Assembly: GCF_900172265.1 (NCBI RefSeq) | Contig: NZ_FWFK01000007.1 | Coordinates: 186,001 to 250,000 of the forward strand | Reading direction: 5' to 3' | Length of the DNA stretch: 64,000 nucleotides | DNA from: Roseivivax jejudonensis | Lineage (GTDB): Bacteria > Pseudomonadota > Alphaproteobacteria > Rhodobacterales > Rhodobacteraceae | Made by a program: the position numbers and the translations under genes | Shown here: in pieces, positions 21,351-44,523 of the stretch | Numbering within the stretch: position 1 is the first letter of the stretch | Layout: every line of letters starts with the position of its first letter | Notes under the pieces: model-generated | Told to the model about the DNA's origin: nothing | The model's input: the letters and a program-made list of their open reading frames with translations, nothing else | Database searches by the model: none

Positions 21351-21426
21351 TGGTGGAGCCTAGGGGGATCGAACCCCTGACCTCCTGCATGCCATGCAGG
21401 CGCTCTCCCAGCTGAGCTAAGGCCCC
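21351..21426 (-). tRNA. tRNA-Ala (anticodon GGC)
   Basis: The minus strand folds as a 76-nt cloverleaf: 5' GGGGCCT acceptor, D-arm TAGCTCAGCTGGGAGAGC, anticodon arm CCTGCATGGCATGCAGG with GGC at the centre, T-arm with GGTTCGATCCC, and a 3' end GGCTCCACCA, so the CCA tail is encoded. It reads GCC codons. It sits between pyrF and the TIGR02300 gene with no neighbouring rRNA or integrase. Confidence 0.95.
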
Positions 21427-29097: not shown

Positions 29098-29432
29098 ATT
29101 TATCCTACTACGACGACTGCCCTGCTGTAGGCTCCTAATGCCGACGATGTGAAACAAAATCATCGGATTAGTCAACAAAGCTTGTTCGAAGGCAAAATGC
29201 GTCAGGAAGGAGCGTCCCGGTTCGATCGACGGTGACCAGGACCAAATTGGATGTCGCGACGAAGGTCTGGCATCGCTCAGCTAGGAGCAGTACTTACGTT
29301 TTGCTCGCATGACCGCTCTCCGCCTTCCTTGTATGAAAGGCTAGCCCTTGATGGCCGCCGCGAGCGCGCCGGGGTCGCGCTGGCGACGATCAACTACTGA
29401 CAACTCTTGAACAGCAGTTCGGTAGGCGACTT

Positions 29433-30047: not shown

Positions 30048-30080
30048 AAAAAACAAGGCGCGGAGGATATCCCCCGCGCC
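30048..30080 (-). terminator. Intrinsic terminator after the 113-residue gene (copy A)
   Basis: On the minus strand GGCGCGG…CCGCGCC forms a stem around an inner GGATATCC palindrome, followed by TTGTTTTTT. It begins about 28 bp after the stop of the gene at 30108-30449. Confidence 0.85.
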
Positions 30081-30107
30081 CTGCTCGTCCTCCGGCTGAG
30101 GCAAAGC

Positions 30108-30449
30108 TCAGCCGTCGTTCTGCGCCTTGGCCGCTTCGCGCTCGGCCTTGGCGGCCGCTTTCGCGGCGCGCTGGTTGGCGGCCTCGGTCTTGAGGCGCGC
30201 GACCAGCTTGGTCGTCTCCTCCGGACGGAGGACGTGCTCGGCGATCCGGGGTGCGGCCGATTTGGACGCATGGAACTCCGCGAGTGCGAAGAGCCAGGCG
30301 AGACCCTCTTCATCGAGGGCGTTGGTGCTGTCGATAATCTTCGACAGCTTGCGCGAGAGAAGCTCGCGCATGATATCCTCGAGCTCGTCGCGCGCGAGGT
30401 CTTCAGTAAGGTCCGCGAGGACCCGGCGAAGGGCTTTCGGTGAAGCCAT
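30108..30449 (-). CDS. 113-residue helical protein, paralogue A of a two-copy cassette
   Basis: A 113-residue, probably all-helical, cytoplasmic protein of unknown function. Its core RKLSKIIDSTNALDEEGLAW, followed by LFALAEFHAS and the block HVLRPEETTKLVARLK, is clearly homologous to the protein encoded at 42222-42563. The first 30 residues are acidic and the last 25 are an Ala/Lys/Arg-rich charged helix. The RBS (AGGAG) lies 10 bp before the ATG. The gene follows the MobV relaxase stop after 126 bp, but that gap holds a structured leader shared with the paralogue, and a terminator follows, so it looks like a self-contained cassette. Confidence 0.65.
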   Translation of the reverse strand: MASPKALRRVLADLTEDLARDELEDIMRELLSRKLSKIIDSTNALDEEGLAWLFALAEFHASKSAAPRIAEHVLRPEETTKLVARLKTEAANQRAAKAAAKAEREAAKAQNDG

Positions 30450-30577
30450 GTAACCATACTCCTATGGTCGTTTCGACGTGCGGGCTGGGCCCGCGGCGGT
30501 CAGGCACTTCGTGGCGCCCAGAAAGACTTGGGTCTCGATTTTCGAGCGAAGAAAAAGTTTGGTTTGGGTTTGAGTCA
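30450..30577 (-). promoter_or_regulatory. Two-hairpin leader of paralogue A
   Basis: Minus-strand leader of the gene at 30108-30449. Reading 5' to 3': a CAAACCCAAACCAAAC motif beginning at the relaxase stop codon (30557-30577); hairpin 1, GGGCGC/GTGCCT with a 6-nt loop (30502-30519, two G-U pairs); hairpin 2, GCGGGC/GCCCGC with a 3-nt loop (30480-30494); then 30 nt to the start codon. The same elements, in the same order and spacing, precede the paralogue at 42222. Confidence 0.65.
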
Positions 30578-31867
30578 TTTTTCTTCGTCGCGGTCGCGGT
30601 CGCGACCGCGCTGACGCAGCCAGGTCTGCAGCCGTGTGATCGGCTTGGTCAGGGATCTGCGCAGCTCGGCGATCCGCGCGCGGTCCGGCCCCGGAAGGCG
30701 CCTGGCGATATCCACGATCGCATCGTCCTCGGTCCGGATCTCGGCGAACGCATCTTCGACTTCGGCGTGCGCCTCGTCTCGCGCGCGTTTGCGCAGGCGC
30801 GCGAGCGCCGCGCTGAACAGGCTACGCGCCCTTGATGCGCTGCCTCTTGTCGGAACTGTGCCAGCCCGGTCGGTATCCGTCAGCTCGAAGTCTGTCAGAT
30901 CGCCCGCGGCGACCGATGCCGCGATGTCCAGTGTTTCGGTGGCCTCCGCTTCACGGCCGGTCACCTCGGTCTCGCGGCTCACAAGCTCTTGGTCCCGATC
31001 CGCGAGCTCGACCTCCTGCTGGCGTCGCCAGTGTCGCGGGCTCACATGCCTGCGGCGCAGCGGAACATCCTTCAGCGGCTCGTCGCCGCGGCGCTCTGCA
31101 TTGTGCTGGATCGCCTCACGGATGGCCTCGGCGCGCCGCTCGCCGCGCGTCAGGCCGATATCGGCGAACCACTGGCCAACGCTGTCCTGCGCGGCCTCGT
31201 AGTCCTTGATCATCGGGTGCTTCGACGGCTGCAGCATGCGGCGACCGTCCTTCGTGGTCGCGCGCGGCACGATGATCGCGTGGATGTGGTAGCTCTCCTC
31301 GTCGAGATCGGCGCGGGCGTGGACCACGTCGTCGCCGAAGTGTTGGCGCAGCCAGGAGACGGCGCGGGCCTCGAAGAGTTTTTCGCGCCGTTCCTTGCTG
31401 TCGAGGGGACGCCCGGCAATTGGCCCGTCGTCCTCGTCGAGCAGGCTGTCGATATCGACCGGACCGAGACCGGCCTCCTCTCTTTCGCTCTCTCCCTCGG
31501 CCAACGGCTGCTCGAACCATTTGCGATTGGCCGTCAGGATGATCTCTCGCAGAGGTCCGTGCCGTGTGGCCCGCCACGGATCTTTCGGCCCCTCGGCCAC
31601 GCGGGTTCGGAACTCCGTCTTCCGCCGCCGCGTCTTGAGCTTTTTGAGATCGTCGGTGTGGTTGTCGAGAGCCATGTCCTCGATCTCGGTCCGGACCGTC
31701 TTGGCCCAATCCTCGCTCCCGATGAGCCGGCGATTGAGCGTGGAGCGCTCGCGGTCCACGTGGCCAAGATCGCCGCCCTTGCGCGTTCGGTGCCCCTCGT
31801 AGCCGCCGAGATCCTTGGGAAAGAGGCCCTGCATCCGCAGCACCACCGGATGTGTCGTGTCGTCCAT
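30575..31867 (-). CDS. mobV: MobV-family relaxase (plasmid mobilization/recombination, Mob_Pre)
   Basis: A 430-residue relaxase that nicks oriT and starts conjugal transfer in trans with a helper transfer system. The N-terminus (VVLRMQGL … HRTRKGGDLGHVDRERSTLN) and the metal-binding motif HARADLDEESYHIHAIIVPR (His183, His194, His196) are those of MobV/Pre. The C-terminal 200 residues are highly charged coiled coil. The 520-bp structured region upstream (31868-32388) is its likely oriT. It is the clearest mobility marker here, with the serine recombinase at 33649. Confidence 0.85.
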   Translation of the reverse strand: MDDTTHPVVLRMQGLFPKDLGGYEGHRTRKGGDLGHVDRERSTLNRRLIGSEDWAKTVRTEIEDMALDNHTDDLKKLKTRRRKTEFRTRVAEGPKDPWRATRHGPLREIILTANRKWFEQPLAEGESEREEAGLGPVDIDSLLDEDDGPIAGRPLDSKERREKLFEARAVSWLRQHFGDDVVHARADLDEESYHIHAIIVPRATTKDGRRMLQPSKHPMIKDYEAAQDSVGQWFADIGLTRGERRAEAIREAIQHNAERRGDEPLKDVPLRRRHVSPRHWRRQQEVELADRDQELVSRETEVTGREAEATETLDIAASVAAGDLTDFELTDTDRAGTVPTRGSASRARSLFSAALARLRKRARDEAHAEVEDAFAEIRTEDDAIVDIARRLPGPDRARIAELRRSLTKPITRLQTWLRQRGRDRDRDEEK

Positions 31868-32388
31868 CGTCCTTACTCCGTTCTGGAGGTCGGGACGTCG
31901 GTTCGGGTGAGGAGGCTTGGCGTATCGGTTTGATCCAAAGACCGCGCCGCGCGGCCAGTGGCTGCGCCGGGGGAGTTACTCACTAATCAGGTCGCGCAAA
32001 TGCCTTCGGCCTTTGCACGACCTGTCGCTCGTCGGGGCGCTGCCCCGAACCCCGCGCCTGTCCGGCGGGGACGCCTGCGCGGCGCGCGGCAGGGCGTCGC
32101 TCGCCGCTCCCCTGCACCCCTGGCGTCTCCGACGGCTCGGGGACGGTCCGCCCGTCCCGCGAGACCCCCTGTCGCCAGGGGGAGCGTCGTTCCGCACTCC
32201 TCCCCCTGGACCCCCGCCTGCTCGCGCGCCCGGCGCCGGGTCGAGAGGGATGTCCCTCTCGACGCTCTCCCGAAGGGCATGGACCGGGGGTGTCCCGTGA
32301 TCGGCTGCGCGCTGGCCGTGCCGCGCAGCCGATCACGGGACACCCCGGACGACATCAGACGCGGCGCTCATCACAAGAGGCCACCAAG
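31868..32388. other. Hairpin-dense intergenic region, candidate oriT
   Basis: A 521-bp gap between the divergent relaxase and PemK-like genes, with no gene but at least five inverted repeats: 31989-32023 (16-bp arms, 2 mismatches, 3-nt loop), 32033-32047 (CGGGGC/GCCCCG), 32165-32182 (CCCCCT/AGGGGG), 32240-32263 (11-bp perfect arms, 2-nt spacer) and 32287-32346 (25-bp perfect arms). Such arrays are typical of transfer origins or single-strand origins of mobilizable elements. The nic site is not identified. Confidence 0.55.
32287..32346. repeat. 25-bp perfect inverted repeat
   Basis: Left arm 32287-32311 begins GGGGTGTCCCGTGATCGGCT; right arm 32322-32346 is its exact complement. The spacer is 10 nt. 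It lies 42 bp upstream of the PemK-like start codon. No T-run follows, so it is not a normal terminator. It could be an oriT element, a recombinase or toxin operator, or an RNA hairpin. Confidence 0.85.
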
Positions 32389-32913
32389 ATGCTGCACGCA
32401 GACATCCCCCAAGCTGCCGCCTGGCAGGAGACGATCAAGCCCGGCGACATCGTCGCGTTCCGGATGCCCCACAAGGACCCGTCCGCAGAACCGCTCAAGG
32501 CGCGCCCGACGCTGGTTCTCGATATCGAGGACATTGACGGCACGAGCATGGCGACGCTCGCCTACGGCACAACCCGGCCGCCGCGCGGCAAGACCGGGCA
32601 CCTCGTGCCGGTCACGGATCCGGACGAGATCGTTGCCGCCTCGCTCGATCGACCGACACGCTTCGATCCGCACCGGACGGTCCTCGTCACGCTCTCGCAC
32701 AACGGCTTCGTGTGCCGGCGCTCGGACGGCTCCGCGATCATCGGCACCCTCTCGGGCACGTCCGCGCAACGCCTCGCGCGGGCGCGCAAGACCCGGCGGG
32801 CCGCACGCCGGAGGCATCGCAGTCACCTCCGGCGGCAGGACAAGCGCCGCGAGGTCGTCGTCGAGCGCCGGCGCGGCGCGCGGCTCGTGTCGAAGGAGGT
32901 GATCCATGCGTGA
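32389..32913 (+). CDS. PemK/MazF-fold protein
   Basis: A 174-residue protein whose first 110 residues resemble the PemK/MazF SH3-like barrel: IKPGDIVAFRMPHKDP…KARPTLVLDIEDIDG, then ATLAYGTTRPPRGKTGHLVPV. The last 50 residues are extremely Arg-rich, suggesting nucleic-acid binding. MazF-type proteins are endoribonucleases, but no antitoxin gene precedes it, so it may be a plasmid-derived regulatory relative. AAGAGG lies 8 bp before the ATG at 32389. It overlaps the next gene by 8 bp. Confidence 0.55.
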   Translation: MLHADIPQAAAWQETIKPGDIVAFRMPHKDPSAEPLKARPTLVLDIEDIDGTSMATLAYGTTRPPRGKTGHLVPVTDPDEIVAASLDRPTRFDPHRTVLVTLSHNGFVCRRSDGSAIIGTLSGTSAQRLARARKTRRAARRRHRSHLRRQDKRREVVVERRRGARLVSKEVIHA

Positions 32914-33331
32914 GGGAGCACTCGATTACGACCCGCTCCTGGCGGCCGTTCACGACGTGCTGATGCGTGCGCGCCCGACGATCGACGCGCTGAACGGCGC
33001 TGCCGGACATCTCGACCGGACGCAGGCGCGCCTCGCCGACGAGATCGCCGGGCGGATCGCGCGCGAGCGCATCCGCGACCCGCGGGATCTCTCCGGGCTC
33101 ACGACGCTGCTCGAGACGCTCTCGGGCATCGTGGCAGACGGATACCAAACGCGCGTCGATTATCCCGAGTTCGGCGAGCCCACCCCCTATCGCGTGCTCT
33201 CGGACGCGGCGCGCGAGCTCGAGCTCGAGCGCCAGACGATCGCGCAGTATCGCGACGCGCTCGAGAGCCTGCACATGCTGCGCCGGGCCGAGATCCTCAC
33301 CCTGCAGATGCGCGCAGAAGACGCCGCCTGA
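32906..33331 (+). CDS. Hypothetical helical protein of the mobilizable element
   Basis: A 141-residue acidic/helical protein with no family I recognise. It begins MREGALDYDPLLAAVHDVLM and ends in a predicted long helix (RELELERQTIAQYRDALESLHMLRRAEILT). The start overlaps the PemK-like gene by 8 bp and it precedes the small ORF and recombinase genes on the same strand, so it is part of that operon. Confidence 0.55.
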   Translation: MREGALDYDPLLAAVHDVLMRARPTIDALNGAAGHLDRTQARLADEIAGRIARERIRDPRDLSGLTTLLETLSGIVADGYQTRVDYPEFGEPTPYRVLSDAARELELERQTIAQYRDALESLHMLRRAEILTLQMRAEDAA

Positions 33332-33457
33332 CACGTCGCGGCGGGGGCCGATCCGGTCTCCGCCGCGGGATCAAACAAACCGTTTTCCGAAAAAATCTGC
33401 CCGCTCCGAGGTCCCGACTGTCCGCGTGACGGACGGCAAACCTCGAAGGGCAGACCC

Positions 33458-33652
33458 ATGATCGATCCGACCCCCTCGCCGCTGCTCACCGCAGCCAACG
33501 ACAACCCCGGCGGCACGACCGAGGCGCGATGCGCGCTCCTCGGTCTCGTCGATCTTCTGGCCCGCGCCGAAGCCCGTCGCGGCCTCGCGCAGGACGCAGC
33601 CAACACCAACCGCGCGCCGGCAGGACGGCAGAATACGGAGGACACCGAATGA
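33458..33652 (+). CDS. Small ORF translationally coupled to the recombinase
   Basis: A 64-residue protein beginning MIDPTPSPLLTAANDNPGG. A GAAGGG RBS lies 7 bp before the ATG, and the stop overlaps the recombinase ATG as ATGA. Small AANDN-containing proteins occur upstream of recombinases in alphaproteobacterial elements in my recollection. The coupling is the best evidence that it is translated; function unknown. Confidence 0.5.
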   Translation: MIDPTPSPLLTAANDNPGGTTEARCALLGLVDLLARAEARRGLAQDAANTNRAPAGRQNTEDTE

Positions 33653-35232
33653 CCAGGCGAGCCGCCATCTACACGCGCTACTCCAGCGCCCGCCAGGATG
33701 TCACCTCGACCACCGACCAGGTGGCGATGTGCCAGGAGTATTGCGACAAGCAGGGCTACACCGTGGTCCATGTCTTCTCCGACCAGGAGAAGACCGGGAA
33801 GAATACCCGGCGTCCGGGCTTCCAGCGGCTGAAGGCGGCCGCCGAGGCGGGCGAGATCGACGTCGTCGTGATCGAGGCGGTCGATCGCCTGACGCGGCGT
33901 CTCGCCGACGCCCTGACGACCTTCGACCTGTTCAGGTTCCGCGGCGCGTCTCTCGAGTCCGTCAAAGAAGGTCCGCAGGACTTTCTAAGGGTCCTGATGC
34001 TGGGCATGGGCGCCCAGTTTTACGCCGACAATGTCGGCGCTCATACGCTCCGCGCCCGGCGCGGCGGGATCTCCCGGGGCCGGATCGGCACCACCGCCTA
34101 CGGGTATCGCAGCCTCGAAATCGAGACCGGCCTCAACCGCGAGATCGATCCCGACCAGGCGGCTGTGGTGCACCGGATCTTTAATGAGTTCGCCTCGGGC
34201 CGCTCGCCGCACGCGATCGCCGACGGCCTGAATGCCGATGGCATCCGCGCGCCGCGCGGTGGCACGTGGAACAGCTCGACAATCCGCGGCAACGCCGACC
34301 GCCAAGAAGGTCTTCTGCGCAACCGGCTCTACACCGGCCGCGCCGCGATCTGCCGCACCCGGACCTCCCACCATCCTGAAACCGGCACGAAGAAGGTCGA
34401 GCTGACGCCTGAAGAGATGGTCGAGGCGGAGTTCCCGTCGCTCCGTATCGTCTCCGAGGAGCTTTGGGACGCGGTCCAGGCGGAGCTCGCGCGCCGTCAC
34501 GAGCAGTATGGCCAGAAGGGCAACGCCGTCGGCGCGCGGCGCACGCGCTACCTGCTCTCCGACTTGCTCAAATGCGCCTGCTGCGGCGCCAACTACATCA
34601 TCTACAACCGCACATCCTATCGCTGCGCGGAGTCTCGGAAAAACGCGTGCAACAACACCGTCGGGATCTCGCGCAGACGCATCGAGGCGCGCGTCTTCGG
34701 CAAGCTCCGCGACGTGATGATGTCGGAGGACCTGATCGAGCGGTTCCAAGCGACGCTGAAAGCCGAGCGCAAGGCGCTCGCCAACGTGGATCTCGACGAC
34801 GAGCACCGGCGCCTCGCCGCCGCGTTGCGCGACGCCGAACGCGGGCGCGACAACATGCTGGCCGCCATCGAACAAGGCGCGCCTTACGAAACCTTCGCCG
34901 CGCGCGCGGGCAAGCTGGAGGCCGAGATCACGTGGCTGACCGCGAAGATCGACGAGACCTCCTCGCGCAAGCAGGCACGGAACGCCCCGCTGCCGGACGC
35001 CCGCGCGATCTATGGAGAGGCCGTCGCACGGATGGAGGCCCTGCTCTCAGATCCGACGCTGGTCGAGGAAGCACACGGCTACATCGCGGCGCTCGTTCCG
35101 CGGATCGAGCTGATGCCCGACCCAGAGGCGCAGCACGGCATCGCCGTTCGGATGCATACGAGGTTCGCGCTTCTGATCGGTGAGGCCGCAGACGGTGCGA
35201 AAGTCGGTGAGACGACGGTCATCGACTGCTGA
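33649..35232 (+). CDS. Large serine recombinase
   Basis: A 527-residue site-specific recombinase. An N-terminal resolvase domain opens AAIYTRYSSARQDVTSTTDQ with nucleophile Ser12, then EAVDRLTRRLADALTTFDLF. A Recombinase domain follows (about 165-280, IFNEFASGRSPHAIADGLNADGI), then a zinc ribbon (LLKCACCGANYIIYNRTSYRC … ACNNT, about 305-345) and a C-terminal coiled coil (about 370-450). It would integrate or excise the mobile element at att sites without high homology. It is the last gene of the plus-strand operon; attachment sites for such enzymes often lie next to the gene, but I could not identify one. Confidence 0.9.
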   Translation: MTRRAAIYTRYSSARQDVTSTTDQVAMCQEYCDKQGYTVVHVFSDQEKTGKNTRRPGFQRLKAAAEAGEIDVVVIEAVDRLTRRLADALTTFDLFRFRGASLESVKEGPQDFLRVLMLGMGAQFYADNVGAHTLRARRGGISRGRIGTTAYGYRSLEIETGLNREIDPDQAAVVHRIFNEFASGRSPHAIADGLNADGIRAPRGGTWNSSTIRGNADRQEGLLRNRLYTGRAAICRTRTSHHPETGTKKVELTPEEMVEAEFPSLRIVSEELWDAVQAELARRHEQYGQKGNAVGARRTRYLLSDLLKCACCGANYIIYNRTSYRCAESRKNACNNTVGISRRRIEARVFGKLRDVMMSEDLIERFQATLKAERKALANVDLDDEHRRLAAALRDAERGRDNMLAAIEQGAPYETFAARAGKLEAEITWLTAKIDETSSRKQARNAPLPDARAIYGEAVARMEALLSDPTLVEEAHGYIAALVPRIELMPDPEAQHGIAVRMHTRFALLIGEAADGAKVGETTVIDC

Positions 35233-35540
35233 GCCAGAAGGGCTGACGGATTGGCAGCGGGCGTGGCCTTGAAGCCTGGCCGCTAGCTCAATTTCTACGG
35301 GCTGACATTCGGTAATCCATCACCCGACGGCGTGTTTGCGGGACGATATGTGAATTCGTTGCGTCTGCGCACGTGGCTTCTTTGGCACACTTTGCGGACC
35401 TTGAATTGGCGTTTCACACAAACCTCCCACCTCCAGCGGACACTCTGTGTGTTCAGCGGAACGGTGTTCCTTCCTCCATTCCAGCGGTGCTGAAGATCGC
35501 CGCCAGCATCTACTAACAACCCTCTTTTCGACCTCGTCAC
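35233..35540. other. Gene-free stretch after the serine recombinase
   Basis: 308 bp without a gene I can support. A minus-strand frame at 35295-35540 lacks an RBS and family-like content. This would be a plausible place for an attachment site. I see no terminator. Confidence 0.4.
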
Positions 35541-36422
35541 TCAGGGGCGCATGCAAAAGGCGTCTGCGACATCCACGCTCACTTCCATCGACAAGACGTC
35601 TGTCGGTCTCCCATGGAAACTCCCGCTGACCGGCGCAACCTGCTCGATTCTTCTCGCGACGGCGACGGGAATGAGATTGATGGAGCCGACCGATCTGTTT
35701 GTCGGGTCGAACGGGATCCAGCCCGCTCCTGGAACGAAGACCTCCACCCAGGCGTGCGTGGAACCGGAAGCATCCGTTCCAACCTCGTTTCCGGAGGGGT
35801 TGAAAAGATATCCAGAAACAAGCCTGGCGCCAAAGCCGAGCGTCCGGACCGCCTCGGCGAAAAGAACTGCGAAGTCCCGGCAGGATCCCCAGCCCCTGTC
35901 GAGGGTCTCCAGCGGCCCCTGGGTGCCTTCCGTCTCGCGGCTCTGATAGGAAATTGCGGCTGTGACGCCGTTGCTGATGTCTTTCAGCAGAGAAAGCGCA
36001 TCTGTTGGGCGTGCCATGACAAATTGCTCGACCCAATTCGGCAGCCGGCTGGTTTCGTCCGCATATTGCGGCATCGCCAGATCGCCGAGGTCTGTCCAGT
36101 CATCAGGTGAATACGCGAATGGGAATGAGACCGCGGCGGCGGCAATCGGGTAGACAGGCCAAATCGGGGCGCGCAGTTCCACACGCGCGCACGATTGGAT
36201 CGAGAGCTTCATAGTGTTGGTTTCGAAATGTGCTGTCGCGACCGCATTGCCGGTAACGTCGTGTGACCAGTCGATGCGGGCTTCCGGACTGATCCCAAGG
36301 TCGAACGACGTCAGAATGAGATCCCGAGTTTCCCGCGGACGGAGCATCAGTCTGTGCGGTCCGAGAGAGACCCTGGTTCCATATTGATAGAGTGTCGTGT
36401 GAGTAATCGTGACGAATGGCAT
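35541..36422 (-). CDS. Transglutaminase-like protease-fold protein, copy 1
   Basis: A 293-residue protein. An N-terminal beta-rich region (ITHTTLYQYGTRVSLGPHRLMLRPRET, the bacterial transglutaminase N domain) precedes the catalytic core, with Cys in DRGWGSCRDFAVLF near 180, His in STHAWVEVF near 225 and Asp in FDPTNRSVG near 245. It is cytoplasmic as there is no signal peptide. Proteins of this kind hydrolyse or form isopeptide bonds; the substrate is unknown. It is the last gene of a compact minus-strand operon, 9 bp after the zinc-ribbon gene. Confidence 0.85.
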   Translation of the reverse strand: MPFVTITHTTLYQYGTRVSLGPHRLMLRPRETRDLILTSFDLGISPEARIDWSHDVTGNAVATAHFETNTMKLSIQSCARVELRAPIWPVYPIAAAAVSFPFAYSPDDWTDLGDLAMPQYADETSRLPNWVEQFVMARPTDALSLLKDISNGVTAAISYQSRETEGTQGPLETLDRGWGSCRDFAVLFAEAVRTLGFGARLVSGYLFNPSGNEVGTDASGSTHAWVEVFVPGAGWIPFDPTNRSVGSINLIPVAVARRIEQVAPVSGSFHGRPTDVLSMEVSVDVADAFCMRP

Positions 36423-36431
36423 CGGTCAGAC

Positions 36432-36647
36432 CTATGATGATCGACCGCCGGAGCGCCGCCGGCCCTGTCCGCCGCCCTCGGGAATTGCCGATCGCCAGAC
36501 AGCCGATCCCTTGCAACGGGAACATATCCGTTCGCAAAACCCCTCGCTCCAGAAGGTTGACCTGCATCTAAGGCAGGCCCGCGCAGCAGCAACGTCGTCC
36601 GTCGCCTTGATTGTCTCGAACTCGATCTCCGCAGACTTTTTCGTCAC
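36432..36647 (-). CDS. Small zinc-ribbon protein
   Basis: A 71-residue protein with two CxxC pairs, CLRCRSTFWSEGFCERICSRCK at about residues 25-46 (quoted up to the second pair), a zinc ribbon. The C-terminus is Gly/Arg-rich. Such ribbons are common in alphaproteobacterial mobile elements and may bind nucleic acid. Its start overlaps the preceding gene's stop by ATGA. Confidence 0.65.
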   Translation of the reverse strand: MTKKSAEIEFETIKATDDVAAARACLRCRSTFWSEGFCERICSRCKGSAVWRSAIPEGGGQGRRRSGGRSS

Positions 36648-36952
36648 TTCCGCTCCTCACGTTTTCTCAATCTGTCCATGTCGCCAACGGCACGCTTAAT
36701 GAGTTTCTGAGTGCGCTCATCGCCAGCCCCGAGGGTCGCTGCGTAACGGTCGAGAAGGAACCGCCACTTTTTCGTGACTTCGGCCCAAGTCCGCGCCGGC
36801 TCCGCAAGCATCTGATCTTCGAGGCTTTCAAGGTGCGGTTGCTGTGGGAGCTGAAGTGGTCGCTGCTTGTTCGCTGGGCGCCGCCGCAATTCAGACGCAT
36901 GCTGTCCGGCAACGGACCTGCGGTCGTCGAGATCAATCGGGTCATCGGTCAT
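36644..36952 (-). CDS. 102-residue basic protein, unknown family
   Basis: A protein beginning MTDDPIDLDDRRSVAGQ and ending with a helical basic part, WAEVTKKWRFLLDRYAATLG…KLIKRAVGDMDRLRKREE. Homologues in other elements share that WxxxxxKWRFLLDRYA core, as I recall. The frame is open to an ATG at 37117, but that start would overlap the upstream gene by 95 bp and has no family-like content. The ATG at 36952 instead overlaps a short ORF stop by ATGA, so I prefer it. Confidence 0.55.
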   Translation of the reverse strand: MTDDPIDLDDRRSVAGQHASELRRRPANKQRPLQLPQQPHLESLEDQMLAEPARTWAEVTKKWRFLLDRYAATLGAGDERTQKLIKRAVGDMDRLRKREERK

Positions 36953-37026
36953 TTCGAAGCCTTGACAATGCCATCGAGCAAAGCTCTCGACTGGACGGAG
37001 CGACATATTTCCAACGCCAAAGTCAT
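36949..37026 (-). CDS. 25-codon ORF joined by ATGA overlaps on both sides, tentative
   Basis: A short frame, starting MTLALEICRSVQSR and ending IVKASK, fits exactly between the gene at 37023-37514 and the one at 36644-36952: its ATG overlaps the upstream stop by 4 bp and its stop overlaps the downstream ATG by 4 bp. That chain of ATGA junctions is what translational coupling looks like. There is no family evidence, so it may only be a ribosome-relay leader or chance. Confidence 0.35.
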   Translation of the reverse strand: MTLALEICRSVQSRALLDGIVKASK

Positions 37027-37514
37027 TCTCCGATGCCAGGGCGCGCGCTTCCGGAGCGTGGTCCGGCATCGCTGGCATGCCTACCGCGGCGATGCTCTTC
37101 CGTCTTAGACAGGTCATCTTGCCCTGCCTGCTGTCGATCGGGCTGGGGAGAGTAGAGGGCGCGGATGTCGGCCTCGGCCACGCCGTCGGCCTGCATGACG
37201 AGGCGGATCATCGGGTCGGCCAGCATCTCCTCGAGGAAGAAATCCGTCAGAGCTTTTCCGGTCAGTTTGTCCTTGGCAACGGCGTGCTCCAGTTCGGCAA
37301 GCGGCACGGAGAGCGTTCGGCTGAGTCCGGGATGAGTGGCCCGCGGATGTAGGCGGACGAGCACGGACGACGTCCATGTGCCTGGTTCAATCCAATCTAC
37401 AGGTTCCAGCAGCTGGGTTTCGATCTCGTATTCGCCGGCCGGAAGGGTCTCGTTGAAGCTCGGAAGTTGGAACGGTTGCAGGAACACCGCAGTCGTCTTG
37501 ATCAAATTGGTCAT
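37023..37514 (-). CDS. 163-residue unknown protein of the transglutaminase operon
   Basis: The protein begins MTNLIKTTAVFLQPFQLPSF and continues LPAGEYEIETQLLEPVDWIEP, a beta-rich part, followed by a helical part (LTDFFLEEMLADPMIRLVMQADGV) and a charged disordered tail. I do not recognise a family name, but it looks conserved rather than random. The start ATG at 37514 is chosen because the upstream part of the open frame is Arg-rich shadow. The stop overlaps the following short ORF by 4 bp. Confidence 0.55.
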   Translation of the reverse strand: MTNLIKTTAVFLQPFQLPSFNETLPAGEYEIETQLLEPVDWIEPGTWTSSVLVRLHPRATHPGLSRTLSVPLAELEHAVAKDKLTGKALTDFFLEEMLADPMIRLVMQADGVAEADIRALYSPQPDRQQAGQDDLSKTEEHRRGRHASDAGPRSGSARPGIGE

Positions 37515-37626
37515 CTCGGCTTTCCAGAACGATTGGTGATTTGGGATGCAATGACGCGGCACCCGCAGAGCGGCCGGCCTCGCGAGCCGACGACGGACGA
37601 ACACATCCACTCTGCGATTGGACTGA

Positions 37627-38463
37627 TCAATTCCGCGACACAGGCATTGTCTCGGCGGGGTCGTGCCTTGCATCCCATGTCCAGACGTCGAATTGTGTCA
37701 GGGTGTTGGGTCCGAACGTTTGGGTCAGCGGCACATCGGCTGCATCCCGACCACGGGCGATCAGGATCCGTCCCACGCGTCTTGAGTTGTTGCGCGGATC
37801 AAAAACCCACCAGCGGCCGTGGAGATAGACCTCCATCCAGGCCGCGAAATCGTCGGGCGCATGAGGTTCGGGTTGGCCGAATTCGCTCAGATAGCCGGTG
37901 CAATAGCGGGCCGGAATGTTCATGCAACGGCAGAAGGTGATCGCGAGGTGGGCGAAATCGCGGCATACCCCTCGCCGCCCGACCAGCGTTTGAGAGGCCG
38001 TGCGCGTCGAGCTTGCGTGCATGTAGTCGAAAGAGACGGTTGTGTGCACGAAATCGCAGATCGCCTGCACCCGCGCCCAGCCCAGCGGCGTGGTCTCGAA
38101 CAGGCGCCACGCCTCTTCCGACAGAAGATCCGTGTCGCAGTAGCGACTGCCAAGAAGATAGACCAGCGTCTCGGAAGGCAGTTCCTGCACGGCCTGCTGC
38201 GGGGCGTTGGGCGCGACCGCATCGGGCAGTCCGCAATCGCGGAAGATCCCGTCGGTGGACAGTGTGAAGTCGCCGGCTGGCGCCACCATGCGCGCGCACC
38301 AGTTTCCGAACCCGTCGCGATAGCTTTCGAGCGGCACACTAGGCGTGGTCACCAGATAGTCGGCGCGTTCCAGGTCACCGAAACGAGAGTAGTGCACGTT
38401 CAAGATTGCAATGAGTGGAGTGGGTTGCGTCAGTCGGTACTTCAGACGGCATCCGATCCGCAT
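37627..38463 (-). CDS. Transglutaminase-like protein, copy 2
   Basis: A 278-residue protein with start MRIGCRLKYRLTQPTPLIAI, the usual N-terminus of this subgroup. The catalytic core has Cys in LVGRRGVCRDFAHLAITFCR near 180, His/Asp-equivalent positions in HAPDDFAAWMEVYLHGRWWVFDPRNN near 215-235; note that the usual HAW is replaced by AAW, with the His four residues earlier. The ATG at 38463 fits the family; the open frame upstream overlaps the Cys/Trp-repeat gene and is shadow. It shares little sequence with copy 1 beyond the catalytic blocks. Confidence 0.82.
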   Translation of the reverse strand: MRIGCRLKYRLTQPTPLIAILNVHYSRFGDLERADYLVTTPSVPLESYRDGFGNWCARMVAPAGDFTLSTDGIFRDCGLPDAVAPNAPQQAVQELPSETLVYLLGSRYCDTDLLSEEAWRLFETTPLGWARVQAICDFVHTTVSFDYMHASSTRTASQTLVGRRGVCRDFAHLAITFCRCMNIPARYCTGYLSEFGQPEPHAPDDFAAWMEVYLHGRWWVFDPRNNSRRVGRILIARGRDAADVPLTQTFGPNTLTQFDVWTWDARHDPAETMPVSRN

Positions 38464-38503
38464 CCGGATGCCTGGCGTGTCGCCGCGGTCTGACCGAGAG
38501 GCT

Positions 38504-39313
38504 TTATCGTCCAAGAACGCACTCCCCATCTGTGAGTTGAAACCCGCGATCGCAGCGCCATGCGTTGCCGGATCGCTCGAGATGCGCGTTTGCCGGAAGG
38601 TCGATCGCGACACAGGCGGTGCCCACCTTCTCAAATCCCCGTTCACAGCGCCAACCCGGTCCGTAGAACGCCGGGTCCAGAAAGGCGTTCGGCGGAAGCG
38701 CCACGGGATCGCAGCGGCCATCGATTTCAAAGAACCCCCTTTCGCAGGCCCATTCTTCGCCGTGGTCCGCATTGGTGATATAACCGTTTTCGGGCACCGC
38801 AATCGGGACGCAGTCGCTGGAACTCGCCGTGAAGCCGCGTTCGCAGGTCCACCCGGAGCTTGAGGTATCGTTGGTGAGATACGCGTTGTTTGGCAGAACG
38901 ATGAGAACGCACGTCTCGCCATCCTCCCGGTAACCGCGTTCACATTGCCAGTCGTAGCCGGACGATCTCAGAAAAGCTTTCTCGGGCACCGGGATCGCCT
39001 CGCAGGCCGTTCCTCCCGCTTCTTCGTACCCGCGCCGACACGCCCAGCCCGAACCGTAGGACCGGCCGGTTGCATAGGCGTTCTCCGGGATGTCGATGGC
39101 AATGCAGTCTTCACCAGCCACCCGGTATCCGAGCGCGCAGTTCCACCCGCCACCATAGCTCCGGGCTTCTGCGTTGTCCGGCAACGGCCCGATGCCATCC
39201 TGCGCGACAACCGGAAACGCTAGGAAGGCGATCACTCCGGCAGCAACGATCACGTCCCTACCGAGGCTCGGCGCCGGAACCCATGATCTGACGGTGGCGA
39301 TAAAACCGATCAT
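38504..39313 (-). CDS. Secreted Cys/Trp tandem-repeat protein
   Basis: A 269-residue exported protein. A hydrophobic segment (about 18-38, ending PVVAQ) acts as signal. Residues about 50-268 are six to seven repeats of roughly 36 residues with the consensus WxCxRGYxxxGxxCxxIxxPxNAYL, each with two Cys that could form a disulfide. Repeat starts are at WNCALGYR, WACRRGYEE, WQCERGYRE, WTCERGFTA, WACERGFFE, WRCERGFEK and WRCDRGFQL. I know such modules from uncharacterised alphaproteobacterial proteins. It is 1 bp coupled (TGATG) to the membrane protein upstream and precedes transglutaminase copy 2. Confidence 0.75.
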   Translation of the reverse strand: MIGFIATVRSWVPAPSLGRDVIVAAGVIAFLAFPVVAQDGIGPLPDNAEARSYGGGWNCALGYRVAGEDCIAIDIPENAYATGRSYGSGWACRRGYEEAGGTACEAIPVPEKAFLRSSGYDWQCERGYREDGETCVLIVLPNNAYLTNDTSSSGWTCERGFTASSSDCVPIAVPENGYITNADHGEEWACERGFFEIDGRCDPVALPPNAFLDPAFYGPGWRCERGFEKVGTACVAIDLPANAHLERSGNAWRCDRGFQLTDGECVLGR

Positions 39314-39684
39314 CAGTTGTCCCCTCCGTCTTCCGGACGCTCCGACGACGCATCGACGTCAAGCGAGGCCAGGCAGGCCTGAGCGATGTCGTGGTCCGGC
39401 GCCTCGGCGCCGGGGACGGTCGCCCAGCCTGCCTGCATCAGCGCGTTTCGGCGCTGGTAGGTCTGAGAATCTCGAGTAACGGCAAACTTCGCCATGCGGT
39501 CCGGATCGGCCAGCGGCATGTCAAGACAGATCGGAACCATGGCCGAGACAACATCCGTGCGGGACATCGCCATCGCCCTTTCATGCGCGGTGCCGCCCGT
39601 CACCCAACCGCCCCAAGTGAAGCCGCCTATGCCGACGACCGCGGCACCATAGGTCCCGGGTTTGAGCCATTCGGGAGTGTTCAT
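39313..39684 (-). CDS. Small membrane protein upstream of the repeat protein
   Basis: A 123-residue protein starting MNTPEWLKPGTYGAAVVGIG with one membrane segment (about 10-32) followed by a soluble domain containing MVPICLDMPLADPDRMAKF and a Gln/Asn-rich helix. I have seen this WLKPGxYGAxxG…WGGWVTGGTA type in alphaproteobacteria as conserved hypothetical. An AGGAG lies 10 bp before the ATG at 39684. Its stop overlaps the repeat protein start. It is probably the first gene of the minus-strand operon. Confidence 0.6.
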   Translation of the reverse strand: MNTPEWLKPGTYGAAVVGIGGFTWGGWVTGGTAHERAMAMSRTDVVSAMVPICLDMPLADPDRMAKFAVTRDSQTYQRRNALMQAGWATVPGAEAPDHDIAQACLASLDVDASSERPEDGGDN

Positions 39685-40350
39685 TGAAGTATGCTCCTGC
39701 GGAGAAAGCGCCGCCTCGCTGTGAAAGCATGTCCGGGTCGCAGTTAGCTGCCGGTTCAGCGGTGTCTCAGACGCTTTGCCCAAGGTGCCTGTGGCCTGCC
39801 CTCACGCAGCCATTCGTTCTGGACGACCCGCCGAGCGTCGGCGCATCTGCCTTCTCTTCTGCGGCTCGCCGGTCACCGCATCCGAGGTTAGACCGCCGGC
39901 GATCCCGATAAAGGTGCCGAGCACCTTTTCGATGGCATTGAGCTCGGCGCGTTCGGTCGGGGTGCACCCAGGCGAACACTCCGGCACCGCATTGTGCCCG
40001 GAGCCGCCTCGGGCGGCGTCCCCCCTTCGTGATTTGGGAAAACGGTGCGCCACGGCCGGGGGCGGAAGTAAACCCGCCTGCTCACGCAGCATAGCCGTGG
40101 CGCATGCATTACATGGGAAGCCGTCGATGGCGTTTCAATGCCGCCCCATCAGCCGTCACCGACTATCAAGCGAATTCGCAACGTCGCAAAACAACTCTTG
40201 TAGGTCGCGTTCATAAGGCGCATCATCGCGGGGCGAGCGTTTTTCTCTGCGACCTTCTGCTTCCGTTCATCCGGCTTCAGTCGATCTCTCAGTCTGACTT
40301 TGCCTGGCTGCCGCATCCCGTGGGCAGCATATGAATAGGAGACCACGGAT
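39685..40350. other. Gene-poor stretch and long 5' region of the cold-shock gene
   Basis: About 665 bp. A minus-strand frame at 39802-40092 contains a plausible helical piece (ERAELNAIEKVLGTFIGIAG) but has no clear RBS or family, so it is left uncalled. The last 150 bp are the likely untranslated leader of the csp gene, which in this family often regulates by RNA structure; no specific fold is claimed. Confidence 0.4.
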
Positions 40351-40557
40351 ATGGCCAATGGCACCGTGAAATTTTTCAATAGCAGCAAAGGCTTCGGCTT
40401 CATCGAGCCGGAATCGGGCGGCAAGGACGTGTTCGTCCACATTTCCGCCGTCGAACGCGCGGGCCTAACAGGACTCTCAGACGCCCAGAAAGTGACGTTC
40501 GAGGTCGAGACCGGCCGCGACGGCCGCGAAAGCGCGACCAATCTCGCGCTTGCCTGA
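40351..40557 (+). CDS. CspA-family cold-shock protein
   Basis: A 68-residue single cold-shock domain with the RNP motifs NGTVKFFNSSKGFGFIEPE and KDVFVHISAVERAG. It binds single-stranded RNA or DNA as a chaperone. AGGAGACC lies 10 bp before the ATG. Its location in the accessory block, away from housekeeping genes, suggests an accessory copy. Confidence 0.92.
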   Translation: MANGTVKFFNSSKGFGFIEPESGGKDVFVHISAVERAGLTGLSDAQKVTFEVETGRDGRESATNLALA

Positions 40558-40879
40558 GTCCACGGATGCCGGGTGCCCTACGGTTGCCCGGCGCACGTCG
40601 CCCTTCCATAAGCGTTCTCGCGGTCGGAGGCCCCCGATCCGGCCTCATTTGCGAAACCGGAAAGTAATGGGCGTCAGTGCCGTTCAGCATTAGCGCGCAC
40701 GGCCGCCCAACGCAGCCGCATTGAATTGGCGGTGGCAATCCTTCTGTTTGCAGCACGCTTAGCCCTTCACTGGGGGCGCCCTCGAACGACCAAAGGATGT
40801 CGAGCGTAGCTTATTGGGCAAGAGCAGGTTCGAACAAGAACGGCAGAACTGCTGTCAGCGGGACTTAGGAGACAAGACC

Positions 40880-41554
40880 ATGAATAATTTCAGCACGGAC
40901 GCTCGCACTGCTACGGGCCGAGATCTCTTCGAGGACAAGCCGAAGAAAACCAGGGAAAAGCCGGAGCTGGCGGTGCCCGAGATTCAGATCGGCGAGCATG
41001 GAAGGTACCAAATCAAGTCTGGCCGTCTTTCGGGGGAATATGTCGCGCGCGCGTTTCCCAAGAAGCCGACAAAGGCACAGGGTTTGATTGCAGAAGCACG
41101 GGGGAGCACGGAAGAAGCAGCGATCGCTGCCCTGCACGAAGTTATCGACTCAAGAGAAATTCGCAGAACCGAGGAACGCAGGATCGACCCGAAAACGGGC
41201 TCAGCCGTACCAAGCACCGCCGAATATGTTGAAGCAATCGGGCAGGTCGCACTGTCGCGCCCACAGGCTGCGATGCTGACAGCGTTGGCCATCGCCGGAG
41301 ACGATGGCTTGCCTGATACGCGGATCGCATACGCAGCAGGTTACAAGTCGCAGAAATCGGCCAATCGCGCTTTGGCGACCGCAGGGCTATTGCTGGCGAA
41401 TTATCTTTCCGTGGAGTTGGCCACAAGCGCGGAGACATGCACTCTCAATGGGACCGCGCTCTTGGGTTTCCGAGGTGCGCGGCCAAACGAAGAAGTCCCG
41501 GGAAACTGGATACTTCACCTGGAATTACGCGAAGCTGTGAGAGTTGTTCTCTAA
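40880..41554 (+). CDS. 224-residue protein of unknown function
   Basis: The protein begins MNNFSTDARTATGRDLFEDK with TTAGGAGAC 7 bp upstream. A middle section YQIKSGRLSGEYVARAFPKK…KAQGLIAEARGSTEEAAIAAL looks like a small beta-alpha domain, and the C-terminal half (LSRPQAAMLTALAIAGDDGL … RIAYAAGYKSQKSANRALATAGLLLANYLSVEL) looks like a winged helix-turn-helix. DNA binding is therefore possible. I know no family name. It is flanked by non-coding DNA on both sides. Confidence 0.55.
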   Translation: MNNFSTDARTATGRDLFEDKPKKTREKPELAVPEIQIGEHGRYQIKSGRLSGEYVARAFPKKPTKAQGLIAEARGSTEEAAIAALHEVIDSREIRRTEERRIDPKTGSAVPSTAEYVEAIGQVALSRPQAAMLTALAIAGDDGLPDTRIAYAAGYKSQKSANRALATAGLLLANYLSVELATSAETCTLNGTALLGFRGARPNEEVPGNWILHLELREAVRVVL

Positions 41555-42098
41555 CAACTTCGACCCAGAACTCCGCAGAGTGAATGTTGCCTTTCGACAT
41601 GCCAAAGGAGGACGGCGTGGCCAGTCCGATACCATCCTTAAGGTGGTGGGGTCTCCGAATATTGCCGGACAGGACACGAATATGCGAGGTCGAACTACTA
41701 ACAACTCATGCGCGGAACGCCTTGTATGCCACTGATATTAATTCGAACTCACCACTTCCTACCGCGTAGCTTCAAAAGCCCTTTTTCGACGAGGGATAGT
41801 GTTGGCATTGCAGGCATGGGCGCAGATTGCCGAATTAGGTAGTTTTAAGCTGGCTCCCGACCTTCGCCGCGCTGACACCGGTGGCGGCTTCGACTGAACA
41901 GGTTGTCAATGCGCGCTTGGCCAGTCCGCCGGAGTGCCGCTCAGAACCCGGGCCATCGGCCCGGACGCGAGCCTCTAAGGGCGCCCTCCCGTTCGCGAGC
42001 CCACGGCCAGTCGCCAAATGGCAGCGCGCTGCCACTTGGTGGATAGCCCGTCGGCCATGCCCGCTCACAGGCAGCGGCGGCGCAGGCTCAAAAAATTT
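41555..42098. other. Gene-free stretch before paralogue B cassette
   Basis: About 540 bp with no supportable gene. Several short frames exist but lack RBS and coding bias. Composition is mixed, lower in GC than the core, becoming GC-rich at 41880-42090. Confidence 0.4.
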
Positions 42099-42221
42099 GA
42101 GTCAAACCAAACCAAAAAATTTGGGCGCACGGAGATCGATACAAAGTCCTCTTCGGGCGCCAGAAGCGCCCGCCCACCGCGGGCTCAGGCCCGCATATTT
42201 ACCAATTACGGAGATGGCTAA
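42099..42221 (+). promoter_or_regulatory. Two-hairpin leader of paralogue B
   Basis: Leader of the gene at 42222. In order: GAGTCAAACCAAACCAAA (42099-42116); hairpin 1 GGGCGC/GCGCCC with a 5-nt loop (42155-42171); hairpin 2 GCGGGC/GCCCGC with a 4-nt loop (42179-42194); then 27 nt containing CGGAGATGG to the ATG. The same arrangement is at 30450-30577 on the other strand. Stems are kept while loop sequences differ. Confidence 0.65.
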
Positions 42222-42563
42222 ATGACTATCAGTAAGTCAACCCGCCGCGCCTTGGTGGACCTGTTCGAAGATGCCGACCGACAAGAGGCCGAGAAAAAGA
42301 TGATGGCTGCATTCGGCCCCAAGCTGTCGAAGGTCATCGACAGCTTACATGCTCTCGATCTGGACGGTCTCGCATGGCTCTTTGCCGCCGCAGAGTTCCA
42401 TGCCTCGTCCGCCGCGGCGCGCGAGATCGCGAAGCATGTCATGCGTCCGGACGAGACCACCGTTCTTGTCGAAAAGCTCAGGGCAGAGGCGGAAGCCCAG
42501 AAAGCCGCGCGCCGAGCCGAACGCGACGCAAAGCGCGCCGAGGCGGACAAGACCGAAGACTGA
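42222..42563 (+). CDS. 113-residue helical protein, paralogue B of a two-copy cassette
   Basis: A 113-residue protein homologous over its whole length to the one at 30108-30449, with the core PKLSKVIDSLHALDLDGLAW, LFAAAEFHAS and HVMRPDETTVLVEKLR. The N-terminal 30 residues are more divergent and the C-terminal tail is again Ala/Arg/Lys/Glu-rich. Equal length, shared leader and an own terminator suggest a mobile or duplicated cassette with one function, perhaps RNA- or DNA-binding in the tail. Unknown family. Confidence 0.65.
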   Translation: MTISKSTRRALVDLFEDADRQEAEKKMMAAFGPKLSKVIDSLHALDLDGLAWLFAAAEFHASSAAAREIAKHVMRPDETTVLVEKLRAEAEAQKAARRAERDAKRAEADKTED

Positions 42564-42588
42564 TCGGCGACTGCAATTTGTCTGTCGA

Positions 42589-42618
42589 GGGCGTAGAGGA
42601 AACTCTGCGCCCTTTTTT
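42589..42618 (+). terminator. Intrinsic terminator after paralogue B
   Basis: A 10-bp stem (GGGCGTAGAG / CTCTGCGCCC, one G-T pair), GAAA loop and TTTTTT at 42613-42618, 26 bp after the stop. Confidence 0.92.
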
Positions 42619-42889
42619 ATGTCGAAGGAGTGCGTTGGCGCTTCGCGGCGCACTGCCCAACTCAGGCGTCGGCGAACCCTGTGCCGACCCAACTCATGTC
42701 ACCGACACGATGTGTCGCGCCGCGCCCGACCGCGAGCTGCCGGTCACACGACAGGTGAAGCGCCCTCACTTGGCCAAAGCCGCCGAGCGGTCTGTTCCTG
42801 TTTCTTGAGCGGCAACCGCTTGGTCGGCGCTCGTAGACCTGGGCCTTCATTGTGCCGGCGCGGGAATGGGTTACATAGCAATGACCGGG

Positions 42890-42910
42890 GTATGTGTTAT
42901 GCGCACATAC
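42890..42910. repeat. Operator-like inverted repeat
   Basis: GTATGTG and CACATAC arms separated by 7 bp (TTATGCG). No gene starts immediately downstream, so its role is open. Confidence 0.35.
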
Positions 42911-42960
42911 GATGCCTCCGGCACTCGGCGTTTTCGCGATGCAAACCTCGGTGGGGCAAA

Positions 42961-43007
42961 GGGGCCGGCCCCTCGCGCTCCCCGGAGTATTTCGGCCAAG
43001 AAGAAGG
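42961..43007 (+). repeat. Interspersed hairpin repeat, copy 2
   Basis: A 12-bp palindrome GGGGCCGGCCCC (42961-42972) followed by CCCCGGAGTATTTCGGCCAA and AGAAGAAGG (42979-43007). It has the same order of elements as the copies at 9434 and 51553 and lies in the gap before the dienelactone hydrolase gene. Confidence 0.75.
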
Positions 43008-43176
43008 GCTGGGCAGGGTTCGGGGCCCGGTCGGGGCGGAGGCCCGGAGGCCGGTGGGCGCCGGGAGGGGCGGAGAGGAGACCGGGAGGGTGTCCGAGAG
43101 GGGCGCCACGGGTGCTCGACATGCGCGGATCCGATCTAGGTTTTCGCCCAGTGCAGAGACCCCAGGGAGGATCGGG

Positions 43177-43926
43177 ATGAGACAGCTCATGACACTTGCG
43201 GCGGCTTTGGCGCTGCCGATGGCGGCGGAGGCACAGATCGCTGGCGAGGCGCACACCTACACCGTGGGCGAGCGCAGCTACGAGGGATACGTGGCCCGGC
43301 AGCCGGCGCTCGAGGAGTCGCGCGGGACGGTGCTGATCGTGCACGACTGGGACGGGCTGACCGATTACGAGATGCGGCGCGCCGACATGCTGGCCGCGCA
43401 GGGCTACACGGCGTTCGCCATCGACGTCTACGGCGCCGACGAGGCGCCGTCGAGCGTCGAGGAGAACCGCGCGCTGTCCGGGGCGCTCTATTCCGATCGC
43501 GAGGAGTTCCGGGCCCGCCTGTCCGGCTCGATCGAGGCGGCGCGCGCGCTCGAGGGCGCGGATGGCCCGATGGCGATCATCGGGTACTGCTTCGGCGGCG
43601 CGGCGGTGCTCGAGGCGGCCCGCGCGGGCGCGGATCTCGACGCCTTCGCGACCTTCCATGCCGGGCTCGACCTGCCGGAGGGGCAGGACTACGCCGCCGT
43701 GCCGGCGCCTGTCATGCTGTTTCACGGCTCCGCCGACCCGGTGTCGGGGATGGACGCGATGGCGATGACGCTGAACGCGCTGCAGGAGGCCGGCGTGGCG
43801 CACGATGCGCGCATCTTCGGCGGCGCGCGGCATTCCTTCACCGTGTGGGGCTCGGAAGACTACGTTCTGGAGGCCGACCGCCAGTCCTGGGACGGGCTCA
43901 TGCGCTTTCTCGACGAGGTGATGTGA
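43177..43926 (+). CDS. Exported dienelactone hydrolase family protein
   Basis: A 249-residue alpha/beta hydrolase with a signal peptide (about 1-20, ending AEAQ). The nucleophile elbow is GYCFGGAAVLEAA (Cys in place of Ser, as in dienelactone hydrolases) near 135, with the Asp and His of the triad at HGSADPVSG near 188 and GGARHSFTVWG near 218. The ATG at 43177 has GGGAGG upstream. The stop overlaps the next gene's GTG. Confidence 0.85.
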   Translation: MRQLMTLAAALALPMAAEAQIAGEAHTYTVGERSYEGYVARQPALEESRGTVLIVHDWDGLTDYEMRRADMLAAQGYTAFAIDVYGADEAPSSVEENRALSGALYSDREEFRARLSGSIEAARALEGADGPMAIIGYCFGGAAVLEAARAGADLDAFATFHAGLDLPEGQDYAAVPAPVMLFHGSADPVSGMDAMAMTLNALQEAGVAHDARIFGGARHSFTVWGSEDYVLEADRQSWDGLMRFLDEVM

Positions 43927-44459: not shown

Positions 44460-44523
44460 GCGGATCGACAGTCGCGCCGGAACGGGGTAGCGCAGGCGCG
44501 TTCCCGCGTCTTCGGAGGACTGC

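Follow-up and report, generated by a model that had tools for sequence, protein, structure and literature searches.

Why would a small gene of no recognised family be held behind a relaxase, and why would a second copy elsewhere in the same genome have kept the same leader? These questions arise from a 64,000-nucleotide stretch of Roseivivax jejudonensis DNA (contig NZ_FWFK01000007.1, positions 186,001 to 250,000; hereafter the window), in which two genes on opposite strands, copy A and copy B, each encode a 113-aa protein. A first-pass annotation had described the pair as a duplicated cassette with a two-hairpin leader, and had proposed an autoregulated RNA-binding protein or a plasmid-copy or transfer control unit of an undescribed kind. 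From comparisons of sequence and predicted structure, we consider it on balance probable that the protein serves as accessory protein to the mobilization module carried by a family of integrative mobilizable elements in Rhodobacteraceae, and that its gene is a self-contained unit whose leader would set the dose of the protein in cis.

Two gene copies with a shared leader

The two intact genes are full-length homologues, with 61/112 residues identical (54%). Their positions were correctly described, and every part of the common 5′ region reported for them, namely a CAAACC motif, hairpin 1, hairpin 2 and a spacing of 27–30 nt to the ATG, is present in both copies (30 nt from the end of hairpin 2 in A, 27 nt in B). 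Each gene is also followed by a terminator-like structure as reported (Table 1), and related sites occur further upstream, between oriT and the relaxase (to 32024). When the two leaders are aligned locally, the match opens precisely at the stop codon of the relaxase (TGA, 30575–30577, minus strand), where leader A had been said to begin, covers 99 nt of A and ends with hairpin 2. Identity reaches 76 of 96 aligned positions, and the alignment score of 87 was equalled by none of 1000 dinucleotide shuffles, the largest of which scored 35.5. By comparison, 16 of 35 fourfold-degenerate codon sites are identical between the two genes (Fisher p 3e-4 against the leader); where the two proteins share a residue, the third codon position is identical in 34 of 59 cases (p 0.004 against the leader). 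Because the leader is better conserved than either class of codon position, these comparisons indicate that A and B are an old pair whose leader is under selection, and the fourfold sites lead us to reject a recent duplication. Covariation between A and B alone is slight, as the hairpin 2 arms are identical (GCGGGC/GCCCGC in both) and the hairpin 1 arms differ by G-C versus G-U only.

Copy B stands apart from any relaxase. No relaxase remnant was found in the 722 nt upstream of it and no oriT decamer near it, and when positions 38500–44500 were compared as DNA with the nine genomes of the genus, the stretch holding the leader and gene B matched copy A only among the matches listed. As part of the explanation that we favour, copy B would be an old relative of the copy A unit that lost, or never had, an adjoining relaxase, and such copies may not be rare. 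Because B retains its leader without an adjoining relaxase, the leader would function in cis to the accessory gene.

A probable accessory gene behind one clade of relaxases

The protein belongs to an unnamed family encoded directly 3′ of MOBV-type relaxases from a single clade in Rhodobacteraceae. The loci that we fetched (the best places only, from family, genus and order draws that overlap, and 14 fetched additionally) contain 70 unique relaxase 3′ ends, 45 from this strong clade and 25 from other relaxases. In the strong clade 38 ends carry the accessory gene, 4 do not and 3 are cut by contig ends, so that the gene lies directly downstream in 38 of 42 evaluable loci; among the others, it follows 2 ends, each belonging to a partial relaxase, and is missing after 21, with 2 more cut. 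The spacer between the two genes measures 79–236 nt (median 140, n = 40), with start codons and leader ends picked by hand. The earlier suggestion that the unit is part of a transfer module is borne out by this gene order. Accessory genes without a recognised upstream relaxase, at L026 (4884–5237), L027 (about 4849–5274), L017 (427–855) and L018 (1483–1758), stand outside these counts; the L017 gene is near a contig start and the L026 gene is followed by a reverse transcriptase gene.

A single-sequence search of a 295-genome family draw found seven genomes at E 0.01, among which one match besides the window's own was strong (1.6e-12), and a three-sequence profile matched nine genomes of a 394-genome family draw. 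The gene lies right after a relaxase in six of the eight further loci inspected. Four places from the single-sequence search (L004, L006, L007 and L008) were set aside on inspection of the table as chance matches within long frames. The relaxase profile matched 37/394 family genomes (1e-20), 5/9 genus genomes (1e-30) and 43/390 order genomes (1e-40). Family members occur in Actibacterium pelagium, Loktanella salsilacus and Sulfitobacter pontiacus, and plasmid pC of Cereibacter sphaeroides 2.4.1 has a 117-aa gene at the equivalent place that the profile does not recognise. A class-level draw of 385 genomes, searched with a 35-row profile, returned the window's own genome only, with at most ten candidates scored per genome, which makes this absence weak evidence. 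Viral contigs gave no match to the protein, the three-sequence profile or the relaxase profile, plasmids none to the A, B and Actibacterium proteins by tblastn, and genome contigs none to B alone; the three-sequence profile found Actibacterium only in the genome contigs.

Copies A and B score below every curated Pfam and NCBIfam cut-off, and their PHROGs matches have E ≥ 0.015. Over 38 family members, at E 0.01, one Pfam model is weakly matched by four members and two models by one member each. AlphaFold predicts an entirely helical protein for copy A (mean pLDDT 79.9, pTM 0.54, residues 1–50 at 60–73), for which Foldseek gives no Protein Data Bank match at E 0.001; the model does not agree with the ribbon-helix-helix type, a beta-alpha-alpha fold, within the limit set by its low-confidence N-terminal half. 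The proposal of an RNA-binding protein thus gains nothing from family membership, a solved relative or a fold match. In the annotated Loktanella and Thioclava records where the profile matches, the accessory gene is a 'hypothetical protein', and the available parts of the literature searched, which leaves most subscription journals outside its coverage, describe neither a second gene after Rhodobacteraceae MOBV relaxases nor such a leader. The protein is apparently encoded by a so far undescribed accessory gene within a MOBV-type mobilization module, and because it is tied to the relaxase, the claim of an undescribed kind of unit is narrowed to the gene.

The leader as a predicted folded RNA

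Over the interval from −80 to −20, 36 non-redundant leaders have a mean z of −1.27 (negative values being more structured than shuffles). The corresponding means are 0.14 in 5′ regions of relaxases (n = 42, p 5e-7) and −0.55 in those of other genes (n = 36, p 0.007). When leader halves were exchanged among 37 leaders, own halves folded better than foreign ones (p 0.00005–0.0014 over four cuts); the difference of −1.53 compares with −0.09 ± 0.38 in dinucleotide-shuffled halves, none of 100 of which reached it. This fit between halves supports compensatory evolution in leaders across the family, as read from sequence.

Four relatives, L016, L065, L068 and L072, have two hairpins at the expected place with compensatory changes. 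Among them, both partners have changed in 5 of 21 pairs, a count reached by 37 of 500 shuffles. The covariation score is 0.341 versus 0.209 when shuffled (3/500 reach it), and slid versions do not exceed 0.119. In the pair cells of the four relatives G-U occurs 10 times and A-C once, as would be expected of a sense RNA, in a count that is partly circular since the structure was derived from the sense-strand fold. Sequence profiles of the leaders, searched against 84 sources (437 kb), link these relatives to the window: the A/B profile matches L016 (E 0.0027) and L065 (E 0.045), and the four-relative profile matches leader A (E 0.0068) and L062 (E 0.02). Every one of these matches lies just after a relaxase stop. 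Despite these links, the proteins of L016, L065 and L068 are 24–30% identical to copy A.

Elsewhere in the family the leader takes other forms. A group of eight leaders typified by L038 forms a different hairpin, in which one pair is changed on both sides; the 3′ arm of this hairpin, TCCGG, can alternatively pair with the Shine-Dalgarno sequence in all eight, without compensatory change. The strongest hairpin ends 24–36 nt before the start codon in 17 of 25 leaders. A hairpin with the Shine-Dalgarno sequence of the accessory gene in its loop is seen by eye in A, L016, L065 and L068, and was rejected as a family feature (z about 0, arms p 0.22). No leader reaches an Rfam gathering threshold, with no match in ten loci and sub-threshold matches only in the others; the sole Rfam match in the whole window is a tRNA at 21354–21426.

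The relaxase start has a hairpin of its own. Its Shine-Dalgarno sequence lies within a predicted hairpin in 35 of 36 readable starts, judged by eye, with varying flanks. Among 29 non-redundant starts, own arms fit better than foreign arms (p 5e-5), by a difference of −2.98 versus −0.78 ± 0.44 in shuffles, of which 0/100 reach it. By this pattern of arm fit, the hairpin looks like a device for translational silencing of the relaxase.

Sites matched between leader and oriT region

A related CAAACC-type motif stands just 3′ of the relaxase stop in L016, L065, L068, L072, L063 and L070, with an altered version in L062; in A, L065, L068 and L072, copies of (T/C)CAAAC start 11 nt apart. The interval between oriT and the relaxase holds TCAAAC in A, L016, L065, L068 and L072 and CAAACCGAACC in L062, and other elements have different look-alike pairs (L050, L048, L023 and L069). 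Over 37 elements, a leader resembles the relaxase upstream region of its own element (14.84) more than foreign ones (13.34; p 0.0014). Other near windows give p 0.0018–0.0057, and control windows at −170 to −100 give p 0.23 and 0.33. Because the sites diverge together element by element, this likeness suggests recognition by an element-encoded protein rather than by a host factor. Base-pairing between the leader and the relaxase 5′ region gave p 0.006 uncontrolled, and 1 of 22 composition-matched shuffles reached it.

Weighing the explanations

In the explanation that we favour, the accessory gene would be a self-contained unit 3′ of the relaxase, made up of an oriT-matching site, the folded leader, a Shine-Dalgarno sequence, the gene and a terminator. 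This expression unit would begin at the relaxase stop codon, presumably with its own promoter, and its leader would act in cis on the accessory gene to set the protein dose, with the hairpins tuning translation or mRNA life. Feedback would most likely come from an element protein, either the accessory protein, which may have a role in transfer, or the relaxase, that recognises the site before both genes. Several observations weigh against this account. Four of the 42 strong-clade relaxases (L023, L036, L049 and L073) have no recognised accessory gene, no fold or family match points to what the accessory protein binds, and a scan found no sigma-70-like promoter near copy A or copy B. Only a subgroup has the exact two-hairpin leader, hairpin form varies across the family, and z exceeds 0 in the leaders of L022, L070, L042 and L060, which do not surpass shuffles in structure. 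The first-pass view of an evolving functional RNA structure is supported as regards the selected leader, the compensatory changes in relatives and the family-wide fit of halves, and is not supported as regards the exact shape. The covariance test proposed with it was similarly divided: the four relatives score above their shuffles, but the model built from them (R1) missed both A and B at E 10, and matched 0/9 genomes of the genus. Because that model finds neither copy, homology of single hairpins between A/B and the four relatives is likely, not proven; the four-relative sequence profile reaches leader B at E 4.8 only. In the matched-site comparison, the compared intervals were tightened once an initial result was known (p 0.012 before, 0.0014–0.0057 after), and single elements are mostly unremarkable, the window's own beating 72% of foreign pairs.

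Alternatively, the conserved part could be a DNA site only, either an operator or a second binding site for the relaxosome or the accessory protein, which would pair with the one near oriT. The 11-nt phasing of the motif copies, its presence in both leader and oriT–relaxase interval and the matched regions speak for such a site; however, compensatory changes across loops point to RNA for the hairpin part, as does the G-U excess with the leaning already noted, and the window's sole nic-like decamer lies upstream of the relaxase, which leaves this a tentative possibility. We regard as rather unlikely that the leader serves intercistronic processing, its hairpin shielding the 5′ end of the accessory message so that accessory protein is made in excess over relaxase. 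The hairpins do lie mostly just upstream of the ribosome-binding region and the hairpin over the relaxase Shine-Dalgarno sequence seems to hold back translation of the relaxase, but copy B retains the leader without a preceding relaxase cistron and the CAAACC part is conserved though outside both hairpins.

Autoregulation through RNA binding is possible. In its specific form, the 113-aa protein would bind its own leader hairpins and repress its own translation, consistent with a leader and gene that stay together even without an adjoining relaxase, with the hairpin position in 17 of 25 leaders and with the alternative Shine-Dalgarno pairing in the L038 group. This form is unlikely, given that no RNA-binding family or fold is matched, that the two-hairpin shape is not conserved everywhere the protein occurs, and that the alternative pairing lacks compensatory change and is not seen by eye in A. 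A two-tier, RNA-controlled mobilization circuit is also improbable: the covarying Shine-Dalgarno hairpin would silence the relaxase, and the accessory protein, made from its folded leader, would recognise a site specific to the element that lies both near oriT and in the leader of the protein itself. Each element would then have a private lock and key, with copy B a free-standing key that could act in trans on the resident element. An ordinary duplication with chance hairpins would account for two copies in one genome, as GC-rich DNA folds easily, but it is made highly improbable by the excess of leader identity (76/96) over fourfold-site identity (16/35) and by the controls on leader structure and half-swapping.

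The element and its neighbourhood

Copy A closes a module that runs in the order serine recombinase, 141-aa gene, PemK-like gene, oriT, relaxase, leader, copy A (Table 1). Actibacterium pelagium has the identical order, with an interrupted recombinase frame. The relaxase scores 51.6 bits against the NCBIfam MobV equivalog, below its cut-off of 100, and is called MOBV-type and divergent here. The oriT, with its inverted repeat upstream of the relaxase gene, is predicted by sequence only; an exact copy of its decamer is present in 34 of 91 loci, among which some overlap, and the window has a single copy, upstream of the relaxase. With the oriT predicted there, the leader was rejected as oriT. 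Recombinase, relaxase and predicted oriT stand together in one module, as expected of an integrative mobilizable element. The window recombinase is 38% identical to that of L009 over 314 columns, and the window PemK-like protein itself has no Pfam match.

Table 1. Features of the module, of the two accessory gene copies and of their leaders in the window.
Feature	Position	Strand	Basis or remark
Copy A, 113-aa accessory protein gene (with stop)	30108..30449	-	intact open reading frame
Copy B, 113-aa gene (with stop)	42222..42563	+	intact open reading frame
Leader A, part homologous to leader B	30479..30577	-	relaxase stop codon to end of hairpin 2
TCAAACCCAAACCAAAC motif, leader A	30557..30573	-	CAAACC-type motif
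Hairpin 1, leader A	30502..30519	-	GGGCGC/GTGCCT
Hairpin 2, leader A	30480..30494	-	GCGGGC CCA GCCCGC
Small hairpin, copy A, Shine-Dalgarno in loop	30453..30468	-	ACCATA-GGAG-TATGGT; not a family feature
Terminator-like hairpin and T run after copy A	30048..30081	-	GC-rich hairpin, then TTGTTTTTT; unlisted by simple terminator scanner
Leader B	42098..42221	+	42098-42195 homologous to leader A
Motif, leader B	42102-42113	+	
Hairpin 1, leader B	42155-42171	+	GGGCGC/GCGCCC
Hairpin 2, leader B	42179-42194	+	
Terminator-like hairpin and T run after copy B	42587..42617	+	terminator scan
MOBV-type relaxase, 430 aa	30575..31867	-	Pfam Mob_Pre (PF01076) 3.5e-8, 33.9 bits, cut-off 25.5
Hairpin over relaxase Shine-Dalgarno	31876..31888	-	CTCC-AGAAC-GGAG; predicted
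TCAAACC between oriT and relaxase start	31927..31933	-	heptamer identical to that in leaders
Predicted oriT	31977..32024	-	inverted repeat 31988-32024 and nic-like TTAGTGAGTA 31977-31986
PemK-like gene	32290..32913	+	43% identical to L009 protein matching PF02452 (2.2e-6)
141-aa gene, function unknown	32906..33331	+	order conserved; 29% identical to L009 counterpart, E 3e-8
Large serine recombinase	33649..35232	+	Pfam Resolvase 4e-27, Recombinase 2.4e-21

Further features lie in and around the module. A perfect 25-nt inverted repeat with a 10-nt spacer (32287–32346) stands at the start of the PemK-like frame. Beside copy A, 27880–29178 on the minus strand encodes cargo, an LmuA-like (Lamassu) defence protein with a PADLOC match at E 1.6e-54, CTD7 and a weak match to the Cap4 nuclease. 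Two relatives carry retron-type genes (L024) or a reverse transcriptase and a SLATT gene (L026) near the relaxase or accessory gene. At 42960–43010 on the plus strand, about 48 nt belong to a dispersed repeat found at many places in the genome and in congeners.

Comparison with known systems

Ribosomal protein operons carry autogenous leader elements, and the unit described here resembles them in having a structured leader before a small protein gene and differs from them in that its leaders have no Rfam match. Among mobilization systems, the MOBV2 modules of the Paracoccus plasmids pMARC4, pMOS2 and pAES1, compared with pWKS1 and pBBR1, have oriTs upstream of mobA and, in the available part of the report, a single mobilization protein (PMC3832669). 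Like them, the window has a MOBV relaxase with an upstream oriT, and the pMOS2 oriT contains CTAGTaAGT, which resembles the window's decamer; the difference from these modules, as far as that part of the report describes them, is the second gene after the relaxase (PMC3832669). In pMV158, according to the available text, MobM (MOBV1) represses its own gene, which is transcribed from promoters at oriT, and most studied plasmids control relaxase synthesis via accessory proteins (PMC5863519). The window shares with pMV158 a MOBV relaxase and, as proposed here, promoters at oriT and feedback control, but the accessory protein would be the regulator in place of a self-repressing relaxase such as MobM, as portrayed in the accessible text (PMC5863519). 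Small accessory proteins such as MobC of MOBQ4 plasmids, without homology to others, raise mobilization and are likewise encoded beside the relaxase, according to the excerpts at hand (PMC6856555). However, mobC is transcribed away from mobA across oriT, and those excerpts describe no structured leader for it (PMC6856555), whereas the window gene lies downstream of the relaxase, encodes a protein predicted to be helical and has a folded leader.

Implications

A second conserved gene, its selected leader and the matched regions would make the control of mobilization in Rhodobacteraceae testable. The accessory gene, which apparently has gone undescribed behind one clade of MOBV-type relaxases, offers a concrete target for annotation in this family.

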